DNA from: Catenulispora acidiphila DSM 44928
Lineage (GTDB): Bacteria; Actinomycetota; Actinomycetes; Streptomycetales; Catenulisporaceae
NCBI RefSeq assembly: GCF_000024025.1
Contig: NC_013131.1
Location: 5,332,001-5,396,000 of the forward strand
Reading direction: 5' to 3'
DNA length: 64,000 bases
Shown in pieces: positions 10,253-26,585 of the stretch (position 1 is its first letter; every line of letters starts with the position of its first letter). The notes beneath the pieces were generated by a model that saw only the letters and a list, made by a program, of their open reading frames with translations, searched no databases and was not told the DNA's origin. The position numbers and the translations under genes are program-made.

Positions 10253-11509
10253 ATGGGCATACGCACAGTGGTGGCGGCGTCGGCGGTTCTCGCGCTGGCC
10301 ACTTCGACGGCCGCTTGTTCGAGCAGCGCGAGTTCCTCGGCGAGCGCCGGCAAGGTTTCCCTCAGCTACGGGGTCTGGGACGCGACGCAGGTCCCGGCCA
10401 TGCAGAAGATCATCGCAGCCTTCGAGGCACAGAACCCGACCATCACGGTCACCATCCAGCAGACGCCGTGGGCGGACTACTGGACCAAGCTCCAGGCGGC
10501 CGCCTCCGGCGGTTCGGCGCCCGACGTCTTCTGGATGAACGGCCCGAACTTCCAGCTCTACGCCGCCAACCACGTCCTGCGGCCGCTGACCGACCTGCAC
10601 CCGGACACCTCGGTCTACCCCCCGGCGCTGGCGCAGCTCTACCAGTACAAGGGCGTGCAGTACGGGCTGCCGAAGGACTTCGACACCGTGGGGCTCTGGT
10701 ACAACAAGGCCATCTTCGACGCCGCGGGCGTCGCCTACCCCACCACCGCCTGGACCTGGGCTGATTTCCAAGCGGCGGCGAAAAAACTCACCGACCCCGC
10801 CAAGGGCGTCTACGGTGTCGGCGCCAACCTGGAAGGCCAGGAGAACTACTACGACACGATCTACCAGGCCGGCGGCTACGTCATCTCCCCCGACGGCAAG
10901 AAGTCCGGATACGCCGATCCGGCCGGTATCGCCGGGCTGAAGTTCTGGACCGATCTGGTCGCGGCCAAGGAGTCGCCGAGCCTGAAGCAGATGACGGACA
11001 CCGCGCCGCTGAACCTGTTCGAGTCCGGCAAGCTCGCCATGTACTGGGGCGGGTCGTGGGACGCGAAGGCGTTCGCCGCGAACGACTCCACCAAGACCGC
11101 CGTCGACGTGACCGCGCTGCCAGCCGGGGTGAAGAAGGCGACGGTCATCCACGGCCTGGCCAACGTCGTCTTCACGCACACCTCGCACCCGGCGCAGGCG
11201 GAGAAGTTCGCCGCGTTCCTCGGCTCGCAGGCGGCGGCGCAGATCGAGGCGGACACCGGGACCGTGATCCCGGCGTACAACGGCACACAGCAGAGCTGGG
11301 TCAAGGCATACCCGCAGTACCACCTCCAGTCCTTCTTGGATCAGCTTCCTGACGCGGTCCCGTACCCGATCTCCAAGGACACCGCGGCCTGGAACACCCT
11401 GGAGACGAACGTCCTGACCAAGGCCTGGGACGGCAGCGAACCGATCGACAAGGCCGCCGGCGACCTCGCCACGCAGATGAACGCGGCGCTGGCCAAGGAG
11501 GGTCCGTGA
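10253..11509 (+). CDS. ABC transporter solute-binding lipoprotein (CUT1)
   Basis: Sugar-binding lipoprotein of 418 residues, first gene of an importer operon. The signal peptide ends in ATSTAAC, with the Cys near residue 22 as the lipidation site. The fold is of the MalE-like cluster (KVSLSYGVWD near the mature start, NDSTKTAVDVTALP later). The stop codon overlaps the GTG of the next gene by 4 bases (GTGA). The ATG at 10253 is preceded by AGGGTGATGAG. The substrate is unknown; the downstream galactosaminidase-like enzyme suggests an amino sugar or galactose oligosaccharide (inference). No transporter ATPase is encoded here, as usual in actinomycetes, where the shared MsiK-type ATPase serves many CUT1 systems. 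Confidence 0.88.
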   Translation: MGIRTVVAASAVLALATSTAACSSSASSSASAGKVSLSYGVWDATQVPAMQKIIAAFEAQNPTITVTIQQTPWADYWTKLQAAASGGSAPDVFWMNGPNFQLYAANHVLRPLTDLHPDTSVYPPALAQLYQYKGVQYGLPKDFDTVGLWYNKAIFDAAGVAYPTTAWTWADFQAAAKKLTDPAKGVYGVGANLEGQENYYDTIYQAGGYVISPDGKKSGYADPAGIAGLKFWTDLVAAKESPSLKQMTDTAPLNLFESGKLAMYWGGSWDAKAFAANDSTKTAVDVTALPAGVKKATVIHGLANVVFTHTSHPAQAEKFAAFLGSQAAAQIEADTGTVIPAYNGTQQSWVKAYPQYHLQSFLDQLPDAVPYPISKDTAAWNTLETNVLTKAWDGSEPIDKAAGDLATQMNAALAKEGP

Positions 11510-12402
11510 GCGCGGCGGGCGCCAGAGCCAGACGCACCGAGACCGCTTGGGCGGCGTTCTTCCTAGCTCCTACCGCAATCGGGCTGGGCGTCTTCTACCT
11601 GTGGCCGGTCTTGCAGACCTTCTACTACAGCTTCACCACCTGGGGTCCGTTCGGCGGCCACACCTTCAGCGGCCTGACCAACTACCGCGCGCTGTTCCAC
11701 GACCCGGACCTGCGCTCGGCGTTCGCCAACACCCTGTGGTACTGCCTGCTCGGACTGGCCGGCGTCCCGATCGCGCTGGTCCTGGCGGCGGTGCTGGCCC
11801 GGCCGGGACGCCGCGGCGTCGGCGTCTACCGCGCGCTGCTGTTCCTGCCGGTGGTGACGATGCCGGTCGCGGTGGCGATCGTGTGGCGGTGGCTGTACGC
11901 CGGGGACTACGGGCTGATCAACACCCTGCTGGGCAAGATCGGGATCCACGGGCCCTACTGGATCAGCGACCAGCACACGGCGCTGATCGCGGTGGCCGCC
12001 GTCGGGCTGTGGTCCAGCGTCGGCTACACGATGGTGATTCTGATGGCGGGGTTGGAATCCATCCCGCGCCAGTACTACGAGGCGGCGCAGATCGACGGCG
12101 CGGGTCCGGTCCGGCAGTTCTTCGCGCTGACGCTGCCGCTGCTGAGCCCGAGTCTGTTCTTCGTCACCGTGCTGTCGGTGATCGGCACGCTGCAGACGTT
12201 CGACCTGGTCTACGTCCTGATCGGCCAGACCAACCCGGCGCTGCCGCAGACCAGGAGCGTGGTCTACCTCTTCTACCAGGACGCGTTCGTGGACAACAAC
12301 CGCGGGTATGCCGCCGCGATCGCGTTCCTGTTGCTGCTGGTCACCGTCGCGCTGACCGGGTTCCAGTTCCGGCTGCAGAAGCGGTGGGTGCACTATGCGT
12401 AG
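11506..12402 (+). CDS. ABC sugar transporter permease, MalF type
   Basis: Membrane permease of 298 residues with about six transmembrane helices. The family's ATPase-contact loop is visible as YYEAAQIDGAGPVRQFFALTLP (residues about 190-211) with the conserved EAA...G pattern. It starts with GTG overlapping the previous stop (GTGA) and overlaps the next gene by 8 bases, so it is translationally coupled on both sides. It would pair with the product of the next gene as a heterodimeric channel for the sugar delivered by the lipoprotein. Confidence 0.9.
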   Translation: MSAAGARARRTETAWAAFFLAPTAIGLGVFYLWPVLQTFYYSFTTWGPFGGHTFSGLTNYRALFHDPDLRSAFANTLWYCLLGLAGVPIALVLAAVLARPGRRGVGVYRALLFLPVVTMPVAVAIVWRWLYAGDYGLINTLLGKIGIHGPYWISDQHTALIAVAAVGLWSSVGYTMVILMAGLESIPRQYYEAAQIDGAGPVRQFFALTLPLLSPSLFFVTVLSVIGTLQTFDLVYVLIGQTNPALPQTRSVVYLFYQDAFVDNNRGYAAAIAFLLLLVTVALTGFQFRLQKRWVHYA

Positions 12403-13217
12403 CCGCCGGGGATCGATCGGGGCGCACACGTTCCTGGTCGCGGCGTGCGTAGCCATGGCCGGGCCGTTCGTGTGGGAGCTGCTGACCTCGTTCAAGACGC
12501 TGACCGAGGCCACGCGCGTGCCGCCGACCTGGCTGCCGCCGCACTGGCACGGCTCCAGCTACAGCTCGGTGTTCGACACCGTGCCGTTCGGCGGGATGCT
12601 GGTCAACAGCGTCATCAACACCCTGGCACGGACCGCCGCGCAGCTGCTGTTCTGCTCGATGGCCGCCTACGCCTTCGCGCGGCTGCGGTTCCCGGGGCGG
12701 AGCCTGCTGTTCGGGCTGTTCCTGTCGATCCTGCTGGTGCCGAGCCAGCTGCTGATCATTCCGCAGTATCAGATCATCGAGAACCTGCACCTGCTCAACA
12801 CCCGCACGGCGCTGTTCCTGCCGGGGATGTTCAGCGCGTTCGGGACCTTCCTGCTGCGGCAGTTCTTCCTGGCGATGCCGCTGGAGCTGGAGGAGGCGGC
12901 GCGCCTGGACGGCGCCGGACCGCTGCGCGTCTATTGGAGCGTCATGCTGCCGCTGGCCCGGCCGGGACTGATCGCGCTGGGGATCCTGACCATGATCTGG
13001 TCCTGGAACGACCTGCTGTGGCCGCTGGTGGTGAACACCGACCCGCACAAGATGCCGCTGTCGGCGGGGCTGGCCTCGCTGCAGGGGCAGTTCATGACGG
13101 ACTATCCCGGTGCTGATGGCCGGGGCGCTGATGGCCACGATCCCGGTGATCGCCGTCTTCGTGGTCCTGCAACGACGGGTCATCGAGGGCATCGCCCTGA
13201 CCGGAACGAAGGGATGA
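12395..13217 (+). CDS. ABC sugar transporter permease, MalG type, with a one-base frameshift near its 3' end
   Basis: Second permease of the importer. The intact part (about 238 residues from the ATG at 12395) carries the EAA loop LELEEAARLDGAGPLRVYWSV and ends in the normal MalG-type WSWNDLLWPLVV and LQGQFMTDYP segments. At 13104-13110 the sequence reads TATCCCGG; dropping one C restores the expected C-terminal reading, which then continues to VLQRRVIEGIALTGTKG and stops at TGA 13215-13217. As given, the frame instead runs without a stop into the following oxidoreductase, making an artificial 699-codon fusion. Corrected length is 273 residues, normal for the family. A sequencing error or a recent mutation are both possible. 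Confidence 0.82.
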
Positions 13218-13219
13218 GG

Positions 13220-14494
13220 ATGTCGGAGCTGAGGATCGGCGTGGTCGGTGCCGGCCAGCGGGCGAAGCTGGCCACGCACGCGCACCGGCCGGGGGTCGCG
13301 CGGGTGGTGGCGTGCGCGGATCCGAGCCCGCGCGGGCAGGCCCACGCGCGGCAGTTGTTCGGCGAGGACGTAGCCCTCTACGAGGACTGGCACGCGCTGC
13401 CGGCCGGCGAGCTCGACGCGGTGTTCGTCCTGACCCCCGACCATCTGCACGCCGCCCCCGCGCTGCACTTCCTGGACGCCGGGGTGGCGGTGTTCGTCGA
13501 CAAGCCGATGGCGATCACCCTCCCCGACTGCGACGCGCTGCTGGCGAGCGCCGCCCGGACCGGGACGCGGCTGTACATCGGGCACAACCTGCGGCATCTG
13601 CCGATGCTGCGGCGGATGCGGGAGCTGATCGAGGACGGGGCGGTCGGCGAGGTCAAGGCGGTGTGGTGCCGGCACTTCGTGGGGCACGGCGGCGACTACT
13701 ACTTCAAGGACTGGCACGCCGAGCGCGCGAACACCACCGGGCTGCTGCTGCAGAAGGGGGCGCACGATCTGGATGTCATCCACTGGCTGGCCGGGGGGTA
13801 TTCGCGGGAGGTCGTGGCGCTGGGCGGGCTGACGGTTTACGGCGCCAATCCGCATCGGCGTGCTGCGGAGAACGGTTCTGGGTCTGGTTCTGGGTCTGGT
13901 TCGGGCTCCGGTTCCGACACGGAGTCACTCATGTCGGATTGGTTCGACGTCGGGGCGTGGCCGCCTTCGCAGCTGCGGGACCTCAACCCGGTCATCGACG
14001 TCGAGGACCTCTCGCAGATGCTCACGCGCCTGGACAACGGGGTCTTCACCAGCTACCAGCAGTGTCACTACTCCCCCGACTACTGGCGCAACTACACGGT
14101 CATCGGCGATGCCGGACGGCTGGAGAACTTCGGCGACGGCATCGACGGGGACCCGGCGGAGATCCGGGTGTGGAACCGGAAGCGGTCGGGCTACCGCTCC
14201 GACGCCGACCTGGTCATCCCCATCTCGGATTCCGCACCCGAAGGGCTGCACGGCGGCGCGGACAGCGCGCTGGTCGCCGAGTTCCTGCGGTTCGCCGCGG
14301 TCGGCGGCCCGACCGAGACCTCGCCGGTGGCGGCGCGCGAGGCGGTGGCCGCGGGGGTCGCCGCGACCGAGTCGCTGCGCTCCGGCGGCGTTCCGGTCGC
14401 GGTGGCCGCGCCTGATCCGGCGGTCGCCGCACACTTCGCCGAGTCTGCAGGGCACCACCGCCGGGTCTCCTCGATCCCGGCGTCCACCTTGTGA
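13220..14494 (+). CDS. Gfo/Idh/MocA-family NAD(P)-dependent oxidoreductase
   Basis: Cytoplasmic sugar or inositol-type dehydrogenase of 424 residues. The Rossmann motif GVVGAGQRAK opens the protein; TPDHLH and FVDKPMAI (the family's EKP-like catalytic Lys) follow near residues 75 and 100, and GAHDLDVIHWL near 185 is the active-site His motif. I start at the ATG at 13220 because GAAGGGA lies upstream at good spacing; an ATG at 13214 would overlap the corrected permease stop as ATGA and is equally possible. Residues about 219-232 are a Gly-Ser repeat that interrupts the C-terminal beta-sheet domain. It is the fourth gene of the importer operon, probably acting on the imported sugar. Confidence 0.87.
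   Translation: MSELRIGVVGAGQRAKLATHAHRPGVARVVACADPSPRGQAHARQLFGEDVALYEDWHALPAGELDAVFVLTPDHLHAAPALHFLDAGVAVFVDKPMAITLPDCDALLASAARTGTRLYIGHNLRHLPMLRRMRELIEDGAVGEVKAVWCRHFVGHGGDYYFKDWHAERANTTGLLLQKGAHDLDVIHWLAGGYSREVVALGGLTVYGANPHRRAAENGSGSGSGSGSGSGSDTESLMSDWFDVGAWPPSQLRDLNPVIDVEDLSQMLTRLDNGVFTSYQQCHYSPDYWRNYTVIGDAGRLENFGDGIDGDPAEIRVWNRKRSGYRSDADLVIPISDSAPEGLHGGADSALVAEFLRFAAVGGPTETSPVAAREAVAAGVAATESLRSGGVPVAVAAPDPAVAAHFAESAGHHRRVSSIPASTL
13874..13915 (+). repeat. 12-base tandem repeat encoding a Gly-Ser run
   Basis: GGTTCTGGGTCT is repeated about two times exactly and continues degenerately, giving seven consecutive Gly-Ser pairs inside the oxidoreductase. The codons are T-rich compared with the rest of the gene. 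Length change in steps of 6 or 12 bases would keep the frame, so this is a candidate variable-length tract. Confidence 0.85.
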
Positions 14495-14520
14495 GTCCCT
14501 CTTGGGAAAAGGAGAGCACG

Positions 14521-16155
14521 ATGCATCTGCTCCGCACTCTCAGACGTCCTCCCGGCCGATTGCTGGCCGGAGCCGCCGCGTTGGCGTTGGCGGGGTTCGG
14601 CTTGGCGGCGCCCGCGGCTTCCGCGAGCACTGCGAACGCTGCGACCGTCTCGACCGTCTCGACGGCTAATGCCGCTCATGTTGCTGGCATAGCGACCGTG
14701 CAGCACGTCGGCGTTCCGGCGTACTTCAACCCCAGTACCAGCTACTGGAGCCAGATCGACCAGAGCGGCTCGGCTGTCGGCATCGCGATCGCCAACCCCA
14801 ACAACGGTCCTGGCGCTTCCTTCGACCAGAGCTACGCGAACGCCATCCAGGCGGCCAGCTCCGCCGGCGTCCGCGTGATCGGCTACGTCGACACCGGGTA
14901 CTTCGGCACGACCGGGCGCACCACGCGCGGCGGGCAGACGACCACCGCGGCCTGGACCACCCAGGCCGAGGCTGACGTCGACAACTGGTACAGCTGGTAC
15001 GGCAGCTACGGGCTGTCCGGGATCTTCTACGACGACGCGCTGAACGACTGCGGCACGAACAACGCGCACGTCGCGCTGTATCAGGCGGTCGGAGACTACG
15101 TAAAGCAGCACCATGCCGGCGCTCTGACCGCCGACAACCCGGGCACGGCTGCCGACCAGTGCTACGCCTCGGCCGCGGACGTGCTGGTGATGTTCGAGGG
15201 CACGTATGCCTCGTACACCGGCTGGACGCCGCCGGCGTGGGAGCTGAGTTCGGGCAATCCGAACCAGTTCTGGCACCTGGTCTACGACACCCCGACCCAG
15301 GCCAACATGGAGAACGCGGTCAGCCTGAGCAAGCAGCGCAACGCCGGGTATCTGTACGTCACGAACGACAACCTGCCCAATCCGTGGGACACGCTGCCGA
15401 CCGGGACGTACTGGAGCGACGAGCTGGCGCAGACCGGCGGCGCGGGTGGTGGCGGCGGCGACAGTACGCCTCCGACGGCGCCGTCGGGGCTGCGGGCCGG
15501 GTCGGTGAGCGCGACCGGGGTGACGCTGACGTGGTCGGCGTCGACGGACAACGTCGGGGTGGCGGCGTATGACGTGTATTCCGGGTCTTCGGTCGTGGCG
15601 ACGGTTTCGGGGTCTTCGACTACGGCGACGGTTTCGAACCTGAGTCCTGGTACTGCGTACACGTTCGCTGTTAAGGCGCGCGACGCTGCTGGGAACATCT
15701 CTAGCGCCAGCACGTCGGTCTCGGTCACGACGTCTTCGGGTGGCGGCGGGGGTTCGTGCACTCCGGTCGCGGGTTCGGGCAACATCACCAACTTCTCGGC
15801 TTGTATGACCGCCACCACCGAGACGTTCCAGGCGACGTTCACCACGGCGGTCAGCCTGCACCACGTCTTCATCGACAGTGACAACAACCAGGGCACCGGC
15901 TTCCAGCTGCCGTCGCCGTCCTCGACACCGCTGGGCGCGGACTACATGATCGAGAACAACATCCTGTACCGCAGCCTGTCGCACGGCTGGAGCTGGACCC
16001 CGGTGAGCGGAGTGAGCCCCAACATGACGCACAACGGGAACGTCTACAGCTGGAGCATCCCGCTGAGCGCACTGGGGACTTCGGCGACGACTCAGCGGGC
16101 GGTCTTCAACGGCAACACCTTCTACACCGCACCGATCACGTTCAGCCGGGGCTGA
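14521..16155 (+). CDS. secreted Spherulin-4/GH135-like hydrolase with fibronectin type III domain
   Basis: Secreted protein of 544 residues. Signal peptide about 1-36 (ends near AAPAASAS). Residues about 55-310 match the Spherulin-4 fold related to GH135 (Aspergillus Sph3, which cuts alpha-1,4-N-acetylgalactosamine polymers): VPAYFNPSTSYW, IANPNNGPG, VIGYVDTGYFG and the acidic GIFYDDALNDC. A Gly-rich linker leads to an FN3 domain (about 332-415, beginning PTAPSGLRAG), another Gly linker and a C-terminal domain of about 110 residues that I do not recognise. AAAGGAG supports the ATG at 14521, 26 bases after the oxidoreductase gene, so it belongs to the importer operon. It ends overlapping the convergent kinase gene by 14 bases. 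Exact substrate is inferred. Confidence 0.78.
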   Translation: MHLLRTLRRPPGRLLAGAAALALAGFGLAAPAASASTANAATVSTVSTANAAHVAGIATVQHVGVPAYFNPSTSYWSQIDQSGSAVGIAIANPNNGPGASFDQSYANAIQAASSAGVRVIGYVDTGYFGTTGRTTRGGQTTTAAWTTQAEADVDNWYSWYGSYGLSGIFYDDALNDCGTNNAHVALYQAVGDYVKQHHAGALTADNPGTAADQCYASAADVLVMFEGTYASYTGWTPPAWELSSGNPNQFWHLVYDTPTQANMENAVSLSKQRNAGYLYVTNDNLPNPWDTLPTGTYWSDELAQTGGAGGGGGDSTPPTAPSGLRAGSVSATGVTLTWSASTDNVGVAAYDVYSGSSVVATVSGSSTTATVSNLSPGTAYTFAVKARDAAGNISSASTSVSVTTSSGGGGGSCTPVAGSGNITNFSACMTATTETFQATFTTAVSLHHVFIDSDNNQGTGFQLPSPSSTPLGADYMIENNILYRSLSHGWSWTPVSGVSPNMTHNGNVYSWSIPLSALGTSATTQRAVFNGNTFYTAPITFSRG

Positions 16156-17065
16156 TGCCCGGCCGGGACGCGTAGGCGACGGCCTGCTCCCACGACGGCT
16201 GAGCGGCAGTACCGCCGACAGCTTGCGTGGACAGAGCGCCGCACGCGCAGCCGACGGCGAGGGCCCGATCGAGGTCCTCGCCGTTGAGCACGGCGGCGAG
16301 GAACCCGGCGTCGAAGCTATCGCCGGCGCCGACGGTGTCCACGGGCTCGAGCGGCGTGAGGCGCGCGGTGTGAGTTTCGGCAGCGCGGCGGGCTACCGCA
16401 CCGTGGCGCCCACGTTTCACCACCGGTGTGCCAACGCCGGCCGCAGCGAAGGCAGCCAGCGCTTCATCAACGGTGGCGGCGCCCGTCAACGCCAACGCCT
16501 CGGACTCGTTAGGCAGCACATAGTCGCAGACCTCGAGCAACCCGGCCGCAAGCCGCCACCGACCGGCGGGGTCATGATTAGTGTCCAGCGAACAGGTCGC
16601 CGCCGCACCACGAAACAACTCGGGAAGCCGAGCAGCCAGCCTCGGCTGCAGGAAGTACGACGCCGCATGGATATGCCGCGCCCGAGGCAGCTCACCCGGC
16701 TCGAACTCGGCAAGACACCCCGCAGCCGTGAGAATCGCCCGATCCCCACCAGGCCCACCAAGACAAACGGTCAGCGCCGTAGCCAACTCAGGATGCCGGA
16801 CAACAGCACCGACATCGACCCCCGCCGAACTCAACGCGTCGAGCACAAAATCCCCGGCAGCATCCCGCCCCACCACCGCAGCCAGCGCAGTAGAGACACC
16901 CAACCGCGCAGCACCATGCGCAACGATGGCCGCCGACCCCCCAAGCGCCAGCGTGCCAGACGCCACAAGAGTCTCCGCCTGCCCATACGGCGGAACCACC
17001 GGCGCCCCCGCAACCAGCACATCAGGATTCGCATCACCGACGACCAGCAGATCAAAACCACTCAT
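16142..17065 (-). CDS. PfkB-family sugar kinase
   Basis: Cytoplasmic ribokinase-like kinase of 307 residues. The N-terminal GGSAAIVAHGAARLG is the first PfkB signature region, and VDTVGAGDSFDAGFLAA near residue 240 holds the second signature with the catalytic Asp and anion hole. Start ATG at 17065 has GGAG upstream. It is the last gene of a minus-strand cluster with a GH4 glycosidase, an AgaS-like isomerase and an ABC importer, so a role in phosphorylating galactosamine, N-acetylgalactosamine or a tagatose-type intermediate is likely (inference). Its end overlaps the convergent Spherulin-4 gene. Alternative: adenosine or fructose kinase, less fitting to context. Confidence 0.85.
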   Translation of the reverse strand: MSGFDLLVVGDANPDVLVAGAPVVPPYGQAETLVASGTLALGGSAAIVAHGAARLGVSTALAAVVGRDAAGDFVLDALSSAGVDVGAVVRHPELATALTVCLGGPGGDRAILTAAGCLAEFEPGELPRARHIHAASYFLQPRLAARLPELFRGAAATCSLDTNHDPAGRWRLAAGLLEVCDYVLPNESEALALTGAATVDEALAAFAAAGVGTPVVKRGRHGAVARRAAETHTARLTPLEPVDTVGAGDSFDAGFLAAVLNGEDLDRALAVGCACGALSTQAVGGTAAQPSWEQAVAYASRPGISPG

Positions 17066-17194: not shown

Positions 17195-18526
17195 TCACCC
17201 CCCACCGCCCCGCGCCGCGAGCGGGCTCCGCCGCAATGGCTCCGGCAGTGCGTCTCCGTGGGCGGTGACCATGGCGTCGCAGAGGTTCCAGATCTGGTCG
17301 ACGGTCAGGGTTGCGGCTGTGGCGGGGTCTGCCATTGCGGCGTGGCGGATGTGGCGGGGGTCGCCTTCTACGGCGGCGGCTACTACTAGGTCGACTACGT
17401 TGAGGAAGTGGCGGTTGGGGGCTGCTAGTTGGGGTGGGAGTGCTCCTACGTGGTGGGGGTGGATGCCGAGGCGGTCGAGGGTTGCTGGGACTTCGACGGC
17501 GGCTGCTTCGGGGAGGTTGCTGATCAGGCCGGTGTTGGGGGTGGTGACTTGGATGGTGCGGGGGGTGCCGGTGGCTAGGCTGTGGATGACTTGGGGGGCG
17601 TATTCGGCGGCGTCGCTTTCCCAGCCGTTGGCGGGGTCGCCGCCGTCGGTGATGACTTTGCGGAGTTCGCGGTATTCGGCGAGGTTTTCGGCGCTGATGT
17701 CGATGTAGTCGCCTACGGGGATGCGGAGGCGGGTGATTTCGGTGTCGTGGCCGAGGTACCAGGGGACGTATTCGGAGGAGTGCTCGCTGGTCTCGGTCGG
17801 GTAGTAGCCGAGGCGCTGGTACATGTCGACGCGGACGCGGCGGGCCAGGTCCGGGCTGGCTGCTATGGCGGCGTCCAGGGCCGGGTAGAGGTCGCGGCCT
17901 TGGTGCTGCCAGCGCAGGATCCAGGCTTGGTGGTTCACGCCGGCGGACAGGACGTCGACGTCGTCGTGGGGGATGCCGATGATGTCGCACAGGCCGCGGA
18001 CGGTCCAGTACACCGAGTGGCACAGGCCTGCGACCTTCAGCTTCGGCGCGATCGTGCTCAGGTACTGGATGTTCATGGCCATGGGGTTGGTGTAGTTCAG
18101 CAGCCAGGCGTCGGGGCAGACCTCGGCCATGTCCTGCGCCAGGGATCGCAGGACCGGGAAGGTGCGCAGGGCGCGGAAGATGCCGCCGACGCCGAGGGTG
18201 TCGCCGATGGTCTGGCGCAGGCCGGCGGCGGCGGGGATCTCGAAGTCGGTGACGGTGGCCTGGTGGCCGCCGACGGCGATCATGTTGACGACGGCGTCGG
18301 CGCCGGCCAGGGCGGCGCGGCGGTCGGTGGTGGCCGTGACGGACACCTCGGCGCCGAGGGTGCGCGCGGCGTGGTCGGCCAGCGCGGCGGCGACCTGCAG
18401 CCGCTCGGGGTCGATGTCGTGCAGCGCGATGGCCGCGCCGGACAGCTCGGGGTAGGACAGGATGTCGTGCAGCAGCTGCCGGGTGAAGACCACCGAGCCG
18501 GCGCCGACGAAGGCGATGCGGATCAC
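17195..18526 (-). CDS. GH4 NAD/Mn-dependent glycosidase, alpha-galactosidase type
   Basis: Cytoplasmic glycosidase of 443 residues using the GH4 oxidation-elimination mechanism. IAFVGAGSVVFTRQLLHDIL is the NAD-binding start close to MelA alpha-galactosidases. The metal-binding Cys is in GLCHSVYWT (around 173) and the His in AGVNHQAWIL (around 202), as in MelA. Start is GTG at 18526; a GGGAGG lies 17 to 22 bases upstream, so a slightly different start is possible. The combination with AgaS-like and PfkB proteins suggests it cleaves imported alpha-linked galactose or galactosamine oligomers rather than melibiose; that is inference. GH4 also contains glucuronidases and phospho-glycosidases, so specificity is open. 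Confidence 0.85.
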   Translation of the reverse strand: MIRIAFVGAGSVVFTRQLLHDILSYPELSGAAIALHDIDPERLQVAAALADHAARTLGAEVSVTATTDRRAALAGADAVVNMIAVGGHQATVTDFEIPAAAGLRQTIGDTLGVGGIFRALRTFPVLRSLAQDMAEVCPDAWLLNYTNPMAMNIQYLSTIAPKLKVAGLCHSVYWTVRGLCDIIGIPHDDVDVLSAGVNHQAWILRWQHQGRDLYPALDAAIAASPDLARRVRVDMYQRLGYYPTETSEHSSEYVPWYLGHDTEITRLRIPVGDYIDISAENLAEYRELRKVITDGGDPANGWESDAAEYAPQVIHSLATGTPRTIQVTTPNTGLISNLPEAAAVEVPATLDRLGIHPHHVGALPPQLAAPNRHFLNVVDLVVAAAVEGDPRHIRHAAMADPATAATLTVDQIWNLCDAMVTAHGDALPEPLRRSPLAARGGGG

Positions 18527-19580: not shown

Positions 19581-20396
19581 TCAGCCCTTGAGCCCGGACA
19601 TGCTCATCGTCTGGACGAACTGCCGCTGGGCGATCAGGAATCCGAGGATCAGCGGCGCGGTCGCCACGACGTTGCAGGCCATCAGCTCCTGCCAGTCGAT
19701 GTGGTGCGCGCCCTGGAAGTTGATGAGCCCGAGCTGGATCGTGAACTTCGACGGGTCGTTGATCGCGATCAGCGGCCAGAGCAGGTCGTTCCAGGAGTTC
19801 AGCAGCGTGAACACCGCCAGGGTGGCCAGCGCCGGCCGGGCCAGCGGCAGCACGATGCGGAAGAACACCCCGAAGGTCGTCAGCCCGTCGATCCGCCCGG
19901 CCTCCTCCAGGTCCTTGGGCAGCGACAGGAAGAACTGCCGCATCAGGAACACCCCGAACGCCGAGGTCAGGAAGGGGACGAAGGCGGCGCCGAGGGTGTC
20001 GATGAGCCCGAGGTGGGTGAACATGAAGTAGGTCGGGATCATCAGCATCTGCGTCGGGATCATGATCGTGGCGACCAGCGTCACGAACCCCACGGTCCGC
20101 CCCCGGAACGACAGCCGCGCATAGGCGTAGCCGCCCAGGGAGCACAGAATCAGATGGCTGACGATCGCGATGCTCGACACGATCGCGGAGTTCAGCATCC
20201 ACCGCCCGACCGGCGCGTCGCGGAACAGCCGCACGTATCCGCTGATGTGCAGCGCGGACGGGAAGAATCTCGGCGGGAAGCGGTTGATGTCGGCGTTCGA
20301 GGTGAGCGAGGCCAGCAGCATCTGCAGCAGCGGCAACAGGAACACCAGGGACAGCGGCATCAGGAGCAGGTGCCAGCGGCTGAATTTACGGCTCAT
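19581..20396 (-). CDS. ABC sugar transporter permease, MalG type
   Basis: Permease of 271 residues with six predicted helices. The EAA loop is LPKDLEEAGRIDGLTTFGVFF, and the C-terminus ends in the usual QRQFVQTMSMSGLKG. The ATG at 20396 overlaps the preceding stop (TGATG), so it is coupled to the partner permease. A longer in-frame reading extends upstream through the partner gene but is only a shadow. Confidence 0.92.
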   Translation of the reverse strand: MSRKFSRWHLLLMPLSLVFLLPLLQMLLASLTSNADINRFPPRFFPSALHISGYVRLFRDAPVGRWMLNSAIVSSIAIVSHLILCSLGGYAYARLSFRGRTVGFVTLVATIMIPTQMLMIPTYFMFTHLGLIDTLGAAFVPFLTSAFGVFLMRQFFLSLPKDLEEAGRIDGLTTFGVFFRIVLPLARPALATLAVFTLLNSWNDLLWPLIAINDPSKFTIQLGLINFQGAHHIDWQELMACNVVATAPLILGFLIAQRQFVQTMSMSGLKG

Positions 20397-21418
20397 CAGA
20401 AGGCCTCGATCTTGCTGCGCCGGGCGTAGGCGAACAGTCCCAGGGTGATGACCAGCGTGGCGCCGAACAGCGTGTAGGCAGCTGCCGAGCCGTATCCGTA
20501 GCGGGAGAGGTTGAACGCCTGGTTGTAGATGAAGTACACGATGGTCTGGCTGGCTCCCAGCGGTCCGCCGTGCGTGGTGGTCAGGATCAGCTCGAAGATC
20601 TGCAGCACCGAGATGGTCTCCCAGACCCCGACGAACACCGTGACCGGCGCCAGGCTCGGCAGGATGACGTGCCGGAACTGCTGCCAGCGATTCGCGCCGT
20701 CGATGCGCGCCGCCTCCAGGCAGTCGGTCGGGATGTCCTGCAGCGCGGCGAGGTAGACGATGACGGAGAACGCCAGGTCGGTCCACAGATAGATCAGGGC
20801 TATGACCCACATGACCTCGTGCCGGTTGGCCAGGAACCCCTGCTGCGGCAGGTGCAGCACCCGCAGCAGGTTGTTCGCCAGCCCGAACTGCTGGTCGAAG
20901 ACGAAGTTCGCCAGGATGCCGGTGGCCGCCGCCGAGACGACCAGCGGCACGAACAGCGCGGTGCGGTAGAAGGCGATGAAGCGGATCTTGCGGTTCAGCG
21001 CGATCGCCAGGAACATCCCCAGGACCAGCACCACCGGGACGTACAAGACCGTGAACAGCACGGTGTGGTTCACAGCGGACCTGAAGTCCGGGTCCTGCGC
21101 CATCAGACGGTAGTTGTCCCAGCCGATCTGGCGCGCCGGCGTGATCCCGTTCCAGTGCTCGCGGGAGATCAGGAACGCCCAGGCGGCGGGGAACAGCGTC
21201 AGGCCCAGGATGATCAGAGTCGCCGGGGCGGCGAAGGACCAGCCGGTCAGGTTGGCGACGACGCGGCGGCGGCGGGCGGTCCACTTGGGTTTGGCAACTG
21301 TCGCTGCGTCCCCGACCGCTCCGTCTCCGGCCTCTGCGACCGGGGCGTTCCGCGCGTTCCGGCGCCGGCCCGCGGCCCCGGACTTCTCATGGTCGGAGAT
21401 CAGGATTCCGTGTTTCAT
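20396..21418 (-). CDS. ABC sugar transporter permease, MalF type
   Basis: Permease of 340 residues. A charged cytoplasmic N-terminal extension of about 55 residues precedes the first helix; the EAA loop is CLEAARIDGANRWQQFRHVILP. It is 9 bases from the solute-binding protein gene and overlaps the next permease gene by one base. The ATPase partner is not encoded nearby. Confidence 0.92.
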   Translation of the reverse strand: MKHGILISDHEKSGAAGRRRNARNAPVAEAGDGAVGDAATVAKPKWTARRRRVVANLTGWSFAAPATLIILGLTLFPAAWAFLISREHWNGITPARQIGWDNYRLMAQDPDFRSAVNHTVLFTVLYVPVVLVLGMFLAIALNRKIRFIAFYRTALFVPLVVSAAATGILANFVFDQQFGLANNLLRVLHLPQQGFLANRHEVMWVIALIYLWTDLAFSVIVYLAALQDIPTDCLEAARIDGANRWQQFRHVILPSLAPVTVFVGVWETISVLQIFELILTTTHGGPLGASQTIVYFIYNQAFNLSRYGYGSAAAYTLFGATLVITLGLFAYARRSKIEAF

Positions 21419-21427
21419 CGGGACGCC

Positions 21428-22756
21428 TCAGTCCGCTTGCGCCAGCGCGACGTCCGCCGCCTTCGCCGCGTCTTGCAAGGCCGACTTGGGATCCCCCTGA
21501 CCTTGCAGCACCTTGGCGATCGCCTGTCCGACAGCCTGGGACAAGCCGACGTAGCCGGGGACGGTCGGCCGGGCGGTCGTGGCGTTCTTCAGGTTGTCGA
21601 AGAGTGTCTGCGCGCCGGGGTACTGCTTGGCGTAGTCCTGGAACTCCTGGCTGCCGGCCTCGCTGCTGCGCAGCGGCAGGTTCCCGGTGGCGAGGTTGAA
21701 CTGCGGGTCGGTCTGCGCCGAGGTCAGCCACTGCGCGAACTGGTAGGACCAATAGGTCCGGTTGGCATCGTGGTGGTCGTACAGGGTCCACAGGTCCGGG
21801 CCGGATATCGTCTGGTGGCTCGTGCCGTCGAAGGAGGGCAGGTAGGTGACGCCGTAGTCCAGGTTCGCTCCGACGTTGTCCGACAGCTGCCACGGCCCGC
21901 TCATGATCATGCCGATCAGGCCGGACTTGAACAGGTCGGCGTACTTCTGGTCGTCCTGCGATAGGTACACGGACTTGTCGGTCACAGCCATCTGCTGCAG
22001 GAACGTCAGGGCTGCCACACCGGCGTCGGAGTCGAAGGCGGCCTTGCTGTTGTCGGAGTTCAGGACGGTGCCGCCCTTCTGCCACAGCAGCGGCCAGAAG
22101 TGCCAGGTGGTGTCCTCGGTCCCGGAGACGGAGTAGGCGGTGCCGTAGACGTTCTTCGCCGGGTCGGTGAGCTTCTTCGCCGCCGCCCGGAAGTCGTCCC
22201 AGGTCCAGGTGTTCGTGGGCTCGGACAGGCCCGCGGCCTGGAACAGCTTCTTGTTGTACATCAGCGCCAGGTTGTCCACGACCGCCGGGAAGCCGATCAC
22301 GTGCCCGTTGGGCGTCGCGGTCTGCCGCGCCGCCGGCGGGAACTCGTCCCACTTCACCGCCGGGTCCTTGACCTTGTCGGTGATGTCCAGGGTGCGGCCG
22401 GACAGCTGCATCTGGGTGGCCCAGCTGCCGAAGTTGTAGGAGATGTCCGGGTAGGTGCCGCTGGTGAAGGCGGCGATCAGCTTCGGCAGCAGCTGGTCGG
22501 TGGTCGGCGCGCCGGGCGAGATGTCGACGGTGACGTTCGGGTGCGCCGCGTGGAACTGCTTGGCCAGACCCTCCAGCAGCTTCTCGGGGTTCACGTCCTG
22601 TCCGGTCCACACGGTGATGGTGACCGGCTTCGTCGGATCCGCCGGCGCCTTCGAGGACGAGGACGCCGAGGAGGAGCACGCGGCGGTCAGCGCCAGCACG
22701 GCGGTGGTGGCGGCCGCGGCGGCCGAGCGAAGGGTTCGTGCCGTTCTTGGATGCAC
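21428..22756 (-). CDS. ABC transporter solute-binding lipoprotein (CUT1)
   Basis: Sugar-binding lipoprotein of 442 residues. Signal peptide about 1-26 with lipobox LTAAC followed by a Ser-rich linker. MalE-like features include WTGQDVNPEK at the start of the mature fold and SGPWQLSDN near residue 290. GTG start at 22756 with GGAGGT at good spacing. First gene of a minus-strand operon with two permeases and AgaS-like SIS, GH4 and PfkB enzymes, transcribed divergently from the DeoR regulator. Probable ligand: galactose/galactosamine oligosaccharide (inference). Confidence 0.9.
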   Translation of the reverse strand: MHPRTARTLRSAAAAATTAVLALTAACSSSASSSSKAPADPTKPVTITVWTGQDVNPEKLLEGLAKQFHAAHPNVTVDISPGAPTTDQLLPKLIAAFTSGTYPDISYNFGSWATQMQLSGRTLDITDKVKDPAVKWDEFPPAARQTATPNGHVIGFPAVVDNLALMYNKKLFQAAGLSEPTNTWTWDDFRAAAKKLTDPAKNVYGTAYSVSGTEDTTWHFWPLLWQKGGTVLNSDNSKAAFDSDAGVAALTFLQQMAVTDKSVYLSQDDQKYADLFKSGLIGMIMSGPWQLSDNVGANLDYGVTYLPSFDGTSHQTISGPDLWTLYDHHDANRTYWSYQFAQWLTSAQTDPQFNLATGNLPLRSSEAGSQEFQDYAKQYPGAQTLFDNLKNATTARPTVPGYVGLSQAVGQAIAKVLQGQGDPKSALQDAAKAADVALAQAD

Positions 22757-23176
22757 GGGAAGACCTCCAAGACATCAGAGAAGGAGACGAGGGGTGGGGT
22801 CATTCAAGGACTCCGCACACCGAACTCACAAGATCCACGCACGTTTCGCTCACCGGGGATGCTCGAACGCGCGCGGAAGGGCGCGTTGAGCAAGTCCTTG
22901 GCAGCATCGCCGGCGCGCGCGTAGCATCAGGGGGCATCGCCGCGGAAACGCGACGTCAGAGGTACGCCCATCCGGTATGTCGGCAGCGCCGCGAGCCCGG
23001 ACCGAGTCGCCAGGACCGCCGGCCGCCCGCGCCGGGGCTTTCCGAGGCGGGGTCGTGCCCACCAGCACTGTGGAGCTCACCGTGAGCCTCATCGATGCCC
23101 GATCGGCCCTTCCCCCCGCGCGATCAGCGCACTCACCTCATCCCGGCGCGCCGACCCGCCCCTGACGGGCCCGCCG
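22757..23176. promoter_or_regulatory. 420-base divergent control region between binding protein and DeoR regulator genes
   Basis: No convincing coding sequence: the short reading frames here have no ribosome site or recognisable content. It should hold the promoters of both the importer operon and the regulator. I could not identify a clear DeoR operator; CGTTTCG (22843) and GGAAACGCG (22943) are weak complementary motifs only. Confidence 0.5.
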
Positions 23177-23986
23177 ATGACCGAACTGCAGAGCAAGACC
23201 CCGCACGCCATGCACCGCTCCGACCGCGTCACCGCGATCCTGGACCGGCTGGCCTACGGCGGCACCGTGGACGTCACGACCGCCGCCCGCGAACTCGGCG
23301 TCTCCGTGGCGACCATCCGCCGCGACCTGACCCTCCTGGACGACCAGAACCTGCTGGTCCGCACCCGGGGCGGCGCGGTCGGCCGCGACGTCGCCTACGA
23401 GCTGCCGGTCCGCTACCGCGACAACCACGGCCGCGCCGCCAAGCAGGCGATCGCGCGCATGGCCCTGCGCGCCCTGGCGCCGGGCCGCCACGTCGTGGCC
23501 GTCAACGGCGGCACGACGACCAGCGAGGTGGCCCGCCTGCTGGCCACCCGCACCGAGCTGACGGTGGTCACCAACGCGCTGAACATCGCCGGCATCCTGG
23601 TCAACCGCCCGAAGGTGAAGCTGGTCGTCACCGGAGGCGTGGCGCGCTCGAACTCCTACGAGATGGTCGGGCCCTGGGCCGAGACCATCGTCGGCCGCTT
23701 CAACGTGGACACCGCCTTCATCGGCATCGACGGCATCAGCGCCGCCAGCGGCCTGTCCACCCACGACGAGGTCGAGGCGCACACGAACGCGGTGATCATC
23801 GGCCGCGCCCGGCGCGTCGTGGTGGTCGCCGACGGCTCGAAGATCGGCCGCACGCACCTGGCGCACGTCGTCGGCCTGGACGCGATCGACCAGCTGGTCA
23901 CCGACGCCAGCGCCGACCCGGCGGAGCTGCAGGCGATCGCGGCTCAGGGGGTTGCGGTGCGGATCGCGGAGCCGGTGCGGCGGTGA
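23177..23986 (+). CDS. DeoR-family transcriptional regulator, AgaR-like
   Basis: Repressor of 269 residues. The N-terminal winged helix carries VDVTTAARELGVSVATIRRD (about 35-54), the DeoR signature, and the C-terminal sugar-phosphate sensor domain contains AVNGGTTTSEVARLL and DTAFIGIDGIS, the phosphate-sensing motifs of this family. DeoR proteins usually respond to a phosphorylated sugar of the pathway they control; here that would be a galactosamine/tagatose phosphate. It is divergent from the importer-GH4-SIS-kinase operon. Start at ATG 23177 lacks a strong ribosome site; the ATG at 23210 is an alternative. Confidence 0.88.
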   Translation: MTELQSKTPHAMHRSDRVTAILDRLAYGGTVDVTTAARELGVSVATIRRDLTLLDDQNLLVRTRGGAVGRDVAYELPVRYRDNHGRAAKQAIARMALRALAPGRHVVAVNGGTTTSEVARLLATRTELTVVTNALNIAGILVNRPKVKLVVTGGVARSNSYEMVGPWAETIVGRFNVDTAFIGIDGISAASGLSTHDEVEAHTNAVIIGRARRVVVVADGSKIGRTHLAHVVGLDAIDQLVTDASADPAELQAIAAQGVAVRIAEPVRR

Positions 23987-24056
23987 GGCGGTGAGGGGCG
24001 GGGCGGTGAAGGGCGTGGCGGTGATGAGTGAGGCGGTGCAGGGCGGCAGCATGGCA

Positions 24057-24087
24057 GACCGGCAGCCCGATGATCGGGCTGCCGGTC
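24057..24087. terminator. bidirectional hairpin terminator
   Basis: A perfect 15-base inverted repeat (24057-24071 and 24073-24087; arms begin GACCGGCAGCCCG) lies between the convergent DeoR and beta-helix genes. It is the strongest hairpin seen in the window and can stop transcription from both sides. Confidence 0.85.
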
Positions 24088-24113
24088 ATCACACCACCGG
24101 TCGTTCGCCTCGC

Positions 24114-25532
24114 TCAGCAGGACCCGGAGAAACTGCTGTGTGCGTCCAAGCCGGTAGCGGCCCGATAGGCGCTGAACCCGGTGTAGGTCGTCGCGTGCCA
24201 GCCCCACTGCGCCGTGGCGGCGCCCGCCGCCGCCGCCGCCGAGTAGCGGTTGGCGTCCACGACGTCGCCCTGGCCGGACGTCGACCGGGCGACGGTCCCG
24301 ATCAGCAGGGTGCCGGGACCTGCGGCGCAGATGGTGTTGCCGGTGATCTGGTTGCCGGACTCGTGGTACTGGATCAGGAACTCCGGCGAGCCGTCGTGGT
24401 CGGTGTTGTTGTTCCGCAGCGTGTTGCCGGTGAAGGTGTTCGCGAAGGAGCGGCCGGTCTGCACTCCCCCGCAGTCCTCGCCGCCGTCGCAGTAGCCGCC
24501 GGTGGTGATGCCGACGTAGCGGCTGTCGCTGACCGCGTTGCCCTCGACGGTGACGTGGTCGGCGGCTCCCCGGGCGTTCTCGGCGGCCACCTCGATGCCG
24601 ATGTCGTCGCCGCGCACGCTGTTGCCCGCGATGGCGATGTGCGTGCCGCCGTCGACGTAGACGCCGTCCGCGCAGTTGCACCAGCCCTCGGGCGACCAGT
24701 AGGCGGGATTGCCCTCGGAGACGATGTTCTCCACGTCGTTTCCGCTGATCACGCCGTCGCGGGCGCGATTCAGGTCGGTGTAGCGGTAGGAGGGCGGGAG
24801 CGTCGGCTCGAAGCCGATGGCGTCGATGCCGATGTTGTTGTCGTCGTGGATGTGGTTGCCGGTGATGCGCCAGCCGTCGACGTTGCCGTTGACCACCACC
24901 GATTCGCTCGCTCCGAGCTTGAGGTGGTCCACTTCGTTGCCGTCGATGGTCAGGGTGCTGATCGGCCGGGTCGGGGAGTCGCCGTAGGCGGCGATGCCGT
25001 GGGCGTTCATGTCCATGCTGCCCAAGGTGCCGTTGTCGTTGCCCATGGCGTGCACATGGTTGCCGGCGATCGTGACGCCGGTGTCGCCGCCGTGGACGTA
25101 GATCCCGATCGGCATCGCGGCGATGTCGGCGCTGCGATAGCCGGTGATCTCCAGTCCGCGCACCGTCACCGCCGTGCTGCCGGCGATGTCGACCATCGCC
25201 GAGCGGCCGGTCGGTACGGTCAGCGAGGAGCCGTCGAGGACGGGATGCTCGCCGGAGGCCGCGGTGAGCGTGATGTTCTTCGCGTTGTGCAGGCTGACGC
25301 GCTGCGCGTACCTCCCACCGCGCACCACCACCGTGCCGCCGCCGCTGGGCAGCGCGGCGATCGCGTGCTGGATCGTGGCGAACGGTGCGGCGAGGGTGCC
25401 GCCTGCTGAGTCGGAGCCGCTGGGCGCGACGTAGACGGTCGAGGTCGTATCGGCCTGCGCGCTCACCGGTACCGCGACCACCGAGAAGACAAGCGCAGAC
25501 AAGGCCGCGAGGCCCAAAGCATGTGGCTTCAT
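24114..25532 (-). CDS. secreted right-handed parallel beta-helix protein
   Basis: Secreted protein of 472 residues: signal peptide about 1-27 (ends SAQA) then a mature protein starting TVYVAPSGSDSAGGT, the usual opening of bacterial pectate-lyase-like beta-helices. Repeated turns such as ITGNHIHDD, IAGNSVRGD, VEGNAVSDS and FTGNTLRNN, spaced 22-30 residues, mark the parallel beta-helix (PbH1/NosD-like). Several Cys (CNC near 290, CDGGEDCGG near 350) may form disulphides. Such proteins are polysaccharide lyases, epimerases or hydrolases; no catalytic residues can be assigned. It shares a 180-base divergent promoter region with the GH114 gene, so it may act on the same extracellular polymer. Confidence 0.75.
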   Translation of the reverse strand: MKPHALGLAALSALVFSVVAVPVSAQADTTSTVYVAPSGSDSAGGTLAAPFATIQHAIAALPSGGGTVVVRGGRYAQRVSLHNAKNITLTAASGEHPVLDGSSLTVPTGRSAMVDIAGSTAVTVRGLEITGYRSADIAAMPIGIYVHGGDTGVTIAGNHVHAMGNDNGTLGSMDMNAHGIAAYGDSPTRPISTLTIDGNEVDHLKLGASESVVVNGNVDGWRITGNHIHDDNNIGIDAIGFEPTLPPSYRYTDLNRARDGVISGNDVENIVSEGNPAYWSPEGWCNCADGVYVDGGTHIAIAGNSVRGDDIGIEVAAENARGAADHVTVEGNAVSDSRYVGITTGGYCDGGEDCGGVQTGRSFANTFTGNTLRNNNTDHDGSPEFLIQYHESGNQITGNTICAAGPGTLLIGTVARSTSGQGDVVDANRYSAAAAAGAATAQWGWHATTYTGFSAYRAATGLDAHSSFSGSC

Positions 25533-25712
25533 ACCGCCCAGAGCCTGGGCACCGCACCGTCGGGCGTCAACGAAAACTCAATCCTCATGAGCGATTCGAC
25601 CCACTCGCTCACTCCGGCTGCGCGTTTCCCATCCACACCTCGACGCTGCCGCGGGACCCCTGCTAAGAATCGCCCCGAACACGAGAACAGCCACCATTCT
25701 CGAGGAGGAATC

Positions 25713-26585
25713 ATGACCCTGACTCCCACCGCCAAGCGCATCACCTCGGCAGCCGCCGGGCTCGCCCTGGTCGCCGCGGCGACCGCAGCCCTGGCGCCGT
25801 CCGCGAGCGCGACACCGGCGCTGCCGAGCCCGGCCGCGTGCAACGGCTGCTGGCACCCGAGCCTGCAGACGTCGTGGAACTGGGTGCTGTCGACGGTACC
25901 GACCGCGCCGTTCCGCAATGTCCAGATGTACGACGTCGACGGCTTCAACAACACCGCCGCGAACGTCTCCGCGCTGCACTCGGCGGGGATCAAGGCCGTC
26001 TGCTACCTGTCCGCCGGGACCTACGAGAACTGGCGCCCGGACGCCTCGCAGTTCCCGGCGGCGGTCCTGGGCAGCGGCAACGGCTGGCCGGGCGAGAAGT
26101 GGCTGGACGTCCGCGAGATCCAGAAGTCGAACAGCGCGCTGCGCAAGATCATGGACGCCCGCCTGGACATGTGCCACCAGAAGGGCTTCGACATGGTCGA
26201 GCTGGACAACGTCGACGGCTACAGCAACAGCACCGGCTTCTCGCTGACCGCCGCCGACCAGCTCTACTACAACGCCACCCTGGCGAACGACTCCCACGCG
26301 CGCGGCATGAGCGTGCTGCAGAAGAACGACAATGAGCAGATCCCACAACTGCTGCCGTACTTCGACGGCGCCCTGAACGAGCAGTGCAACCAGTACAAGG
26401 AGTGCACGACCGCGCAGAACGGCGACTACGGCTACGACCAGTACGTCGCCAAGGGCAAGCCGGTGTTCCAGGCCGAGTACAAGCTGGCGACGTCGTCCTT
26501 CTGCTCCAAGGACAACGCGAACAACTTCAACGGCGTGCGGTTCGACATCGACCTGGACGACAAGACCTTCCAGGCCTGCCGCTGA
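25713..26585 (+). CDS. secreted GH114 endo-alpha-1,4-polygalactosaminidase
   Basis: Secreted glycosidase of 290 residues, single-domain. Signal peptide about 1-29 (ends PSASA). The mature domain shows the GH114 pattern: WNWVLSTVP, MYDVDGFNN, AVCYLSAGTYENWRPD, WLDVREI, GFDMVELDNVDGYSN (acidic catalytic pair region), SVLQKNDNEQ and FQAEYK. Characterised GH114 enzymes (Ega3 and bacterial PelA-type relatives) cut alpha-1,4-galactosamine polymers. GGAGGA at 25704 fixes the ATG at 25713; a longer in-frame reading upstream has no signal peptide logic. It stands next to the galactosamine-type import and catabolic cluster. Confidence 0.85.
   Translation: MTLTPTAKRITSAAAGLALVAAATAALAPSASATPALPSPAACNGCWHPSLQTSWNWVLSTVPTAPFRNVQMYDVDGFNNTAANVSALHSAGIKAVCYLSAGTYENWRPDASQFPAAVLGSGNGWPGEKWLDVREIQKSNSALRKIMDARLDMCHQKGFDMVELDNVDGYSNSTGFSLTAADQLYYNATLANDSHARGMSVLQKNDNEQIPQLLPYFDGALNEQCNQYKECTTAQNGDYGYDQYVAKGKPVFQAEYKLATSSFCSKDNANNFNGVRFDIDLDDKTFQACR

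Follow-up and report, generated by a model that had tools for sequence, protein, structure and literature searches.

A probable galactosamine-polymer utilisation locus of Catenulispora acidiphila and its candidate cis-regulatory RNA leader

Does any bacterium carry a locus for the utilisation of galactosaminogalactan or Pel, matrix polymers of fungi and bacteria? None came up in our literature search. The question is raised by part of a window of 64,000 nucleotides (positions 5332001-5396000 of contig C1) in the single-contig, 10,467,782-base genome of Catenulispora acidiphila DSM 44928, where genes for a secreted glycoside hydrolase family 114 (GH114) enzyme and a secreted Spherulin-4/GH135-type enzyme lie with genes for importers and sugar catabolism. 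A preliminary description of this window had proposed that these genes form one combined unit for galactosaminogalactan-type polymers. We find it probable that this locus serves the utilisation of a galactosamine polymer and stands under an RNA leader, the latter a structured element of 119 nt between the genes for a substrate-binding protein (SBP2) and a DeoR-type regulator. Sequence comparisons support an alpha-1,4-galactosamine polymer as the putative substrate, either fungal galactosaminogalactan or a bacterial Pel-like polymer. The locus provides candidate genes for most utilisation steps, including enzymes possibly useful against biofilms, and its leader RNA, which is absent from Rfam 15, would represent a testable new regulatory class.

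The two secreted enzymes resemble fungal Ega3 (GH114) and Sph3 (GH135), bacterial PelA (GH166) and GH191 proteins in sequence family and in their catalytic Asp and Glu; according to PMC12054363, polymers of alpha-1,4-linked galactosamine (GalN) or N-acetylgalactosamine (GalNAc) are the substrate class of the Ega3, Sph3, PelA and GH191 enzymes. The GH114 protein matches Glyco_hydro_114 (PF03537) with 275.6 bits (cut-off 27) and the Ega3 structure 6ojb at E 4e-46. Using the Ega3 catalytic and loop residues given in PMC12054363, we found that D165, E223 and W125 of the secreted form (numbering counted on the alignment) align with Asp189, Glu247 and Trp154 of Ega3, the catalytic Asp and Glu being 58 residues apart in both proteins. 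The Spherulin-4 protein matches PF12138 with 151 bits (cut-off 30.2) and Sph3 (5c5g, 5d6t) at E about 1e-10, and the Sph3 catalytic pair aligns with its D171 and E226; the Asp of the pair is printed as Asp196 in PMC12054363 and is residue 166 by our own count if the Glu is 222. The preliminary description had named a position of this protein outside GH135 as part of what would refute its proposal, and the alignment of both catalytic residues speaks for a place inside that family. Sph3 is described to prefer acetylated and Ega3 deacetylated polymer (PMC12054363). In the path that we propose, the secreted GH114 would cut a GalN-rich alpha-1,4 polymer and the Spherulin-4/GH135 enzyme its GalNAc-rich stretches. 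PMC12054363 also reports that none of the bacterial GH114 proteins tried was obtained soluble and folded, and that a Streptomyces galactosaminidase activity still lacks an assigned sequence. The C-terminal domain of the Spherulin-4 protein (15751-16152, ~130 aa, without Pfam match) occurs in no protein of the loci compared other than the orthologs of this protein and is possibly a carbohydrate-binding domain.

Profile matches located every gene that the preliminary description had named, namely the two secreted enzymes at 14521 and 25713, an alpha-galactosidase-type GH4 (NF011657, 562.5 bits over a cut-off of 486), a PfkB kinase, a SIS protein, two CUT1 importers and a DeoR-type regulator. To these we add a ROK regulator, a Gfo/Idh/MocA gene, a beta-helix protein and the non-coding element, and we assign the genes to two modules:

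8813-10012, minus: ROK-family regulator with an IclR-type helix-turn-helix (PF00480, 133 bits), divergent from module A
10253-11509, plus: SBP1, CUT1 substrate-binding protein, module A (PF01547, 148 bits)
11506-12402, plus: permease 1, module A (PF00528)
12395-13217 (end approximate), plus: permease 2, module A, 3' end frameshifted
13220-14494, plus: Gfo/Idh/MocA NAD-dependent enzyme (GFO), module A (PF01408)
14521-16155, plus: secreted Spherulin-4/GH135-type enzyme with fn3 and C-terminal domains, module A (PF12138)
16142-17065, minus: PfkB kinase, ribokinase type, module B (PF00294)
17195-18526, minus: GH4, MelA type, module B (NF011657)
18578-19492, minus: predicted SIS sugar-phosphate deaminase/isomerase, module B (PF01380; similarity to the GlmD/GlmS isomerase domain)
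19581-20396 (start by eye), minus: permease, module B (PF00528)
20396-21418, minus: permease, module B (PF00528)
21428-22756, minus: SBP2, substrate-binding protein, module B (PF01547)
22957-23075, plus: structured non-coding element, candidate cis-regulatory RNA, 119 nt (conservation, profile and covariance-model matches, covariation)
23082-23165, plus: short leader open reading frame (ORF) of 27 codons with a GTG start, directly 3' of the RNA element, length not conserved
23177-23986, plus: DeoR/AgaR-like regulator (NCBIfam AgaR, 180 bits)
24114-25532, minus: secreted right-handed beta-helix protein (predicted fold, without Pfam match)
25713-26585, plus: secreted GH114, predicted endo-alpha-1,4-polygalactosaminidase (PF03537)

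All three secreted proteins have signal-peptide-like N-termini as judged by eye. Among the ORFs scanned in the interval we found neither an ATPase gene for the CUT1 importers nor an aldolase gene. The preliminary description had likewise seen no tagatose aldolase, although another part of the genome contains a second SIS operon with a class II aldolase gene. Near the 3' end of permease 2 a one-base frameshift creates a 699-aa frame that runs into the Gfo/Idh/MocA gene; as permease 2 is intact in five relatives, we rejected a permease/Gfo fusion and attribute the frame to a sequencing error or a real mutation.

If the genes of the locus serve one pathway, their linkage should recur outside the genus, as the preliminary description had expected across actinomycetes. 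We collected loci for the best 80 of 167 GH4 relatives, a selection that leans to close relatives; after removal of 4 from the window's genus 76 remained, 67 of them full length and a few the same records as Streptomyces loci read earlier (e.g. L147 = L059, L164 = L060; L and G numbers are our handles for loci and genomes). GH114 genes were present in 38 of the 76 loci, SIS genes in 32, class II aldolase genes in 29 and Gfo/Idh/MocA genes in 5, while none of these occurred in 20 random 20-kb regions. SIS and aldolase genes stood together in 24 loci, which indicates an amino sugar of galacto configuration, and 10 loci combined GH114, SIS and aldolase. All ten Lentzea loci contained GH114, nine SIS and seven aldolase. 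In L100 (Lentzea) and L094 (Actinomadura) a second PfkB gene, with an N-terminus that by eye is like that of 1-phosphofructokinase (1-PFK)/LacC, lies between SIS and aldolase. L100 unites GH114, importer, SIS, this kinase, aldolase, GH4, PfkB and DeoR and would thus encode the complete galactosamine path, and L070 has DeoR, GH114, importer, PfkB, GH4, SIS and aldolase in a single run. Of 16 Streptomyces-type GH4 loci (60-64% identical), we read 13 in stretches of up to 20 kb (14.7 kb for L066), and each of the 13 had a GH114-like gene upstream of SBP-P-P-(PfkB)-GH4 (P, permease); the remaining three were read over 11 kb, with GH114 present in G059 and absent from G078 and G116. Among the matches listed for 16 distant GH4 homologs, no GH114 or Spherulin-4 gene lay within 15 kb. 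Together, these comparisons support the GH114-importer-GH4-SIS-PfkB logic, the substrate class and the co-occurrence across actinomycetes put forward by the preliminary description.

A related arrangement, a CUT1 importer followed by three accessory genes, is found in the Streptomyces coelicolor operon agl3EFGXYZ, the accessory genes of which we take to specify a SIS protein, a GH4 and a kinase. We know of no GH114 gene or RNA element at the agl3 operon. The operon differs in having a GntR-type regulator where C. acidiphila has a DeoR-type one, and PMC3924187 reports agl3EFG as a trehalose/melibiose-induced sugar porter. By analogy, the C. acidiphila locus could serve ordinary alpha-galactoside utilisation, with GH4 a plain MelA and GH114 a neighbour without shared substrate. 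This alternative, which we regard as unlikely, is favoured by the match of GH4 to the MelA model and by 15 of the 76 GH4 loci, which lack GH114, SIS and aldolase. In one of the 15, L139, an alpha-galactosidase A-type gene (PF16499) lies near GH4, the only other hydrolase found among the few proteins scanned from some of the GH4 loci without GH114. Against it stand the 24 loci with SIS and aldolase, and the finding that in two lineages, which differ in GH114 subtype, GH4 is accompanied by GH114-superfamily genes.

What would the cell do with the released oligosaccharides? In the galactosamine pathway that we favour, the two CUT1 importers would take them up with the help of a shared ATPase such as MsiK, which we presume to act in this role. 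The NAD-dependent GH4, perhaps together with the Gfo/Idh/MocA enzyme, would free the sugar, PfkB would phosphorylate GalN, and the SIS protein would deaminate GalN-6-P to tagatose-6-P; the path would be completed by two enzymes from the second SIS operon, a 1-PFK/LacC-type kinase and a class II aldolase. The second SIS protein is 62% identical to the first and is encoded at C1:6816304 in an operon DeoR-SIS-ROK kinase-PfkB-class II aldolase (L079:7506-12194), which is likely to be a galactosamine catabolism core. Its PfkB passes the 1-PFK subfamily model and its aldolase the ketose-bisphosphate aldolase model (238.5 over 215.6), making the latter a candidate for the aldolase step that has no gene at the main locus; tagatose- and fructose-specific models stay below their cut-offs. 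A dedicated deaminase, kinase and aldolase would fit galactosamine, via the tagatose branch, better than glucosamine, because glycolysis should absorb the latter without them.

The enterobacterial aga/gam galactosamine pathway, with AgaS, KbaY and uptake by the phosphotransferase system (PTS), is similar in leading from GalN-6-P through tagatose-6-P and tagatose-1,6-bisphosphate to trioses and in having a DeoR-family regulator. Unlike PTS uptake, the predicted route in C. acidiphila combines ATP-binding cassette (ABC) uptake of oligosaccharides with an internal GH4, and its SIS protein lies below the AgaS cut-off. NagS (SCO4393), described in PMC12680351 as a SIS-domain N-acetylglucosamine-6-phosphate dehydratase of Streptomyces in synteny with dmdR1, is likewise a SIS-domain amino-sugar-phosphate enzyme; we considered this identity for the SIS protein and set it aside, as the SIS genes here neighbour DeoR, class II aldolase or GH4 genes. 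No paper combining galactosaminidase, GH4 and glycoside hydrolase came up in the literature search. The Gfo/Idh/MocA protein matches other Gfo domains, and the C. acidiphila genome had no match to the GH109 C-terminal domain PF21252, nor did the control genomes. Its AlphaFold model is weak (predicted local distance difference test, pLDDT, 63), with the NAD-dependent glycosidases 8qc2 and 8qc8 as best matches only marginally ahead of other Gfo/Idh/MocA proteins, so that an NAD-dependent glycosidase activity is a lead from fold comparison.

Several results speak against a galactosamine system, or against its unity. The alpha-galactoside-type loci described above are among them, as is the assignment of GH4 by model to MelA alpha-galactosidases. 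The SIS protein scores 28.5 bits against AgaS (TIGR02815, cut-off 529.2), which makes its earlier designation as AgaS-like a loose one, and 90.4 bits against GlmD (NF041128, cut-off 580); the regulator, a DeoR protein as described, reaches 180.1 bits against AgaR (NF040755) where 260 are needed. In the second operon, PfkB has a better score with the 1-phosphofructokinase model than with that of LacC, and the aldolase attains 219.7 bits against the tagatose-bisphosphate model TIGR01858 (cut-off 443.55). Finally, in a synteny survey of 147 genomes of the order, in which some proximity counts are lower bounds, modules A and B were separable. Each of the 6 genomes that have a close Spherulin-4 contained module A (ROK, SBP-P-P, Gfo/Idh/MocA, Spherulin-4), with the ROK gene beside SBP1, but the module adjoined module B in only three (G000, G007, G023) and lay apart from it in G003, G015 and G019. 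Of these, G015 and G019, from a sister genus, had GH4, importer and DeoR without GH114, SIS or PfkB in the stretch read, and a further sister-genus genome, G013, had a close GH114 with neither importer nor GH4 beside it.

The gene set is thus a juxtaposition of two modules, and the single combined unit of the preliminary description does not hold. Module B (GH114, beta-helix protein, DeoR, SBP-P-P-SIS-GH4-PfkB) kept its order in 7 of 7 same-genus genomes with GH4, one of them split over two contigs; it was present in G009, G017 and G021 without any Spherulin-4 match at E 1e-10, and the congeners G011, G025 and G027 lacked both GH4 and a close GH114. The two modules may nonetheless share one pathway, judging from Gfo/Idh/MocA orthologs (52-69% identical) in the GH4 loci L125, L128, L136, L151 and L165 of Streptomyces, Embleya and Amycolatopsis, and from ROK and importer genes distantly like those of module A in L136 and L149.

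Like Ega3, Sph3 and PelA, which serve polymer synthesis and remodelling, the two secreted enzymes could instead remodel a polymer that the cell makes itself. Streptomyces offers a precedent. Among the matches listed, at least 38 of 81 close GH114 genes have a Spherulin-4 gene within 3 kb, and all 24 of the 38 pairs that were read have, in the same stretch, a DUF3492 (PelF-type) glycosyltransferase gene and one for a large secreted protein, which in 2 of the 4 copies scanned matched Agd3 below the cut-off. The glycosyltransferase profile matched 2 of 20 random regions (374 and 35 bits) and the secreted-protein profile none. These pairs apparently sit in biosynthetic loci; since they adjoin a PelF-like glycosyltransferase, a Spherulin-4/GH114 pair alone is no sign of utilisation. 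In C. acidiphila, however, the genes for the two secreted enzymes are linked to those for importers and sugar catabolism, and the DUF3492 model, positive in a Thermotoga control, had no match in the genome. We accordingly consider a role in remodelling of a self-made polymer very improbable here. The Streptomyces loci themselves (L072-L076 and L186-L205), with PelF-like glycosyltransferase, weakly Agd3-like secreted protein, GH114 and, in all but L076, Spherulin-4, are likely a galactosamine-polymer biosynthesis cluster.

How might such a system be controlled? The alignment of the SBP2-DeoR intergenic region contained three nearly invariant blocks, and one 22-mer was identical in nine of nine family copies. 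For 52 sequences, RNAalifold predicted a helix P1 (9 bp) closing a junction with P2, which carries a variable hairpin P2a, and P3; in the window, P1 pairs 22961-22969 with 23050-23059, P2 22972-22975 with 22997-23000, and P3 23008-23015 with 23041-23049. A Shine-Dalgarno sequence, GGAG (23072-23075), closes the element and is followed by a start codon, read on the plus strand. Our initial reading placed the RNA on the opposite strand; we abandoned it, because it is the plus sense that carries the start sites and ribosome-binding sites. In a MAFFT alignment, 99.4% of 1118 cells were paired, with 31 double-change cells compared to 7.6 after shuffling; in a model-fitted alignment, which is biased towards structure, 99.1% of 1179 cells were paired, with 41 double-change cells compared to 9.9. 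With P2a and an extended P3, the fitted alignment had 13 double-change pairs and 90 double-change cells (9.4 and 35.8 after shuffling), values reached by 0 of 500 shuffles, which ignore the kinship of the sequences. Pairing fell to 54% or less when partners were slid, and five of seven single-sequence folds inspected by eye, including that of the window copy, contained P1, P2 and P3 (L056 and L144 fold differently). Known riboswitch and leader families in Rfam 15 are similar in having a structured 5' leader, a junction and covarying stems, but no family matches the element: the window had no match at gathering score and none up to E 1 at the element, and, of the copies, L126 stayed without matches up to E 10 and L117 had just two, both by chance; in other regions, two tRNAs and an L31 leader were picked up by the same scan.

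A profile of the nine family copies matched GH4/GH114 loci of Streptomyces, Amycolatopsis, Embleya and Actinacidiphila at E values down to 7.5e-24. We then built a covariance model, R1, from 52 copies; genome searches added 18 rows, which include up to 3 repeats. With filters that were stricter for order and class and lose weak matches, R1 found 41 copies in 34 of the 147 genomes of the order and 8 copies in 6 of 394 genomes sampled from the class, all 6 from the window's order. Of 36 named genomes of other groups 8 matched, namely four Amycolatopsis strongly and four Actinoplanes/Paractinoplanes at E 0.002-0.04. GGAG and a start codon at 4-13 bases were found in 39 of the 41 order copies, GGAG partly by construction, as it is the 3' end of the model, which leaves the identity of the next ORF as the informative part. 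In the pooled set (74 rows, 71 distinct sequences), the first ORF after the element was GH114 in 49 rows, SBP2 in 6, a 1-PFK/LacC-type kinase in 2, DeoR in 1, a GH4 fragment in 1 and a short ORF in 12, with none in 3; GH114 came first in 13 of the 18 rows from genome searches. All four Actinoplanes/Paractinoplanes copies precede a 1-PFK/LacC-type kinase, as judged by the kinase N-terminus. We found the element in none of 27 further GH114 loci (24 PelF-linked pairs, 3 unpaired), 4 SIS-aldolase loci and 20 random regions. One operon, L071, holds two copies, at 14971-15074 before GH114 and at 16082-16189 before SBP2. Two decayed-looking copies, L248:5781-5889 and L215:8058-8160, lie one divergent from a SIS-aldolase pair and one before a GH4 fragment.

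In the window's family the element faces DeoR, directly in G021 and via a short ORF in the other eight copies. An invariant stretch between divergent genes and beside a DeoR gene might be a multi-site DNA operator of the DeoR/SBP2 promoter, its three blocks being the sites. An operator is quite unlikely, however, to account for a fixed orientation into the start codon of pathway genes, for compensatory changes in P1, P2a and P3, or for copies before stand-alone GH114 genes without GH4, in stretches without a DeoR profile match. We therefore read the element as a new cis-regulatory RNA, new meaning absent from Rfam 15, papers not having been searched for it. The RNA leader would adjust expression of the first gene of a utilisation set, and in C. 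acidiphila, where it faces DeoR, it would set the level of the regulator.

The evidence for this RNA is not uniform, and some of it points the other way. In the unfitted MAFFT alignment only 4 double-change pairs were seen, a number matched by 29 of 500 shuffles, and pairing in the P3 extension is limited to 57% of cells. A 171-nt stretch folded with an energy no better than that of shuffled sequences (z +1.6 and +1.7). A helix sequestering the Shine-Dalgarno sequence was present in 11 of 55 copies compared to 37% of shuffles; with no such enrichment, simple Shine-Dalgarno sequestration is not supported as the switch. The searches gave no copy in loci of Lentzea, Actinomadura and Actinoallomurus, nor in 12 genomes from these groups, and the window's own copy faces DeoR through a short ORF, not GH114.

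Does the RNA sense a metabolite? A conserved, covarying structure lies in the predicted 5' leader of related genes, and the element is possibly a riboswitch for a galactosamine metabolite, the likely ligand being narrowed by its gene neighbours to a handful of sugars. We tentatively propose, with somewhat less than even confidence, that the element founds a new class of riboswitches with a galactosamine-derived metabolite as ligand (e.g. GalN, GalN-6-P or tagatose-6-P), that it governs the utilisation of galactosamine polymers in actinomycetes, and that the NAD-dependent GH4 acts there as an exo-alpha-galactosaminidase. A leader that is bound by a protein or acts otherwise, not as a metabolite sensor, is a serious alternative, if one we would not bet on: the expression platform looked for, a Shine-Dalgarno helix, is not enriched, and invariant joining regions can equally be protein sites. 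A multi-helix junction with invariant loops before the genes of one pathway is, on the other hand, the usual appearance of a metabolite riboswitch.

Other genes of the region are less readily placed. The beta-helix protein is kept between GH114 and DeoR in the genus and is 71-87% identical in 5 relatives. Its AlphaFold model (pLDDT 70) has GH136 and other, general beta-helix enzymes as best folds, and its single weak sequence match is to 3vst (E 1.3e-4 over 70 residues); the modelled fold makes it a possible new polymer-active enzyme. Upstream of module A, at 5758-7995, an alpha-amylase with CBM20 is likely to reflect unrelated starch use. Downstream of GH114 (26712-31500), a sodium/proton exchanger gene is followed by ABC ATPase and BPD_transp_2 permease genes, and the exchanger adjoins GH114 also in five of the relatives read over that stretch.

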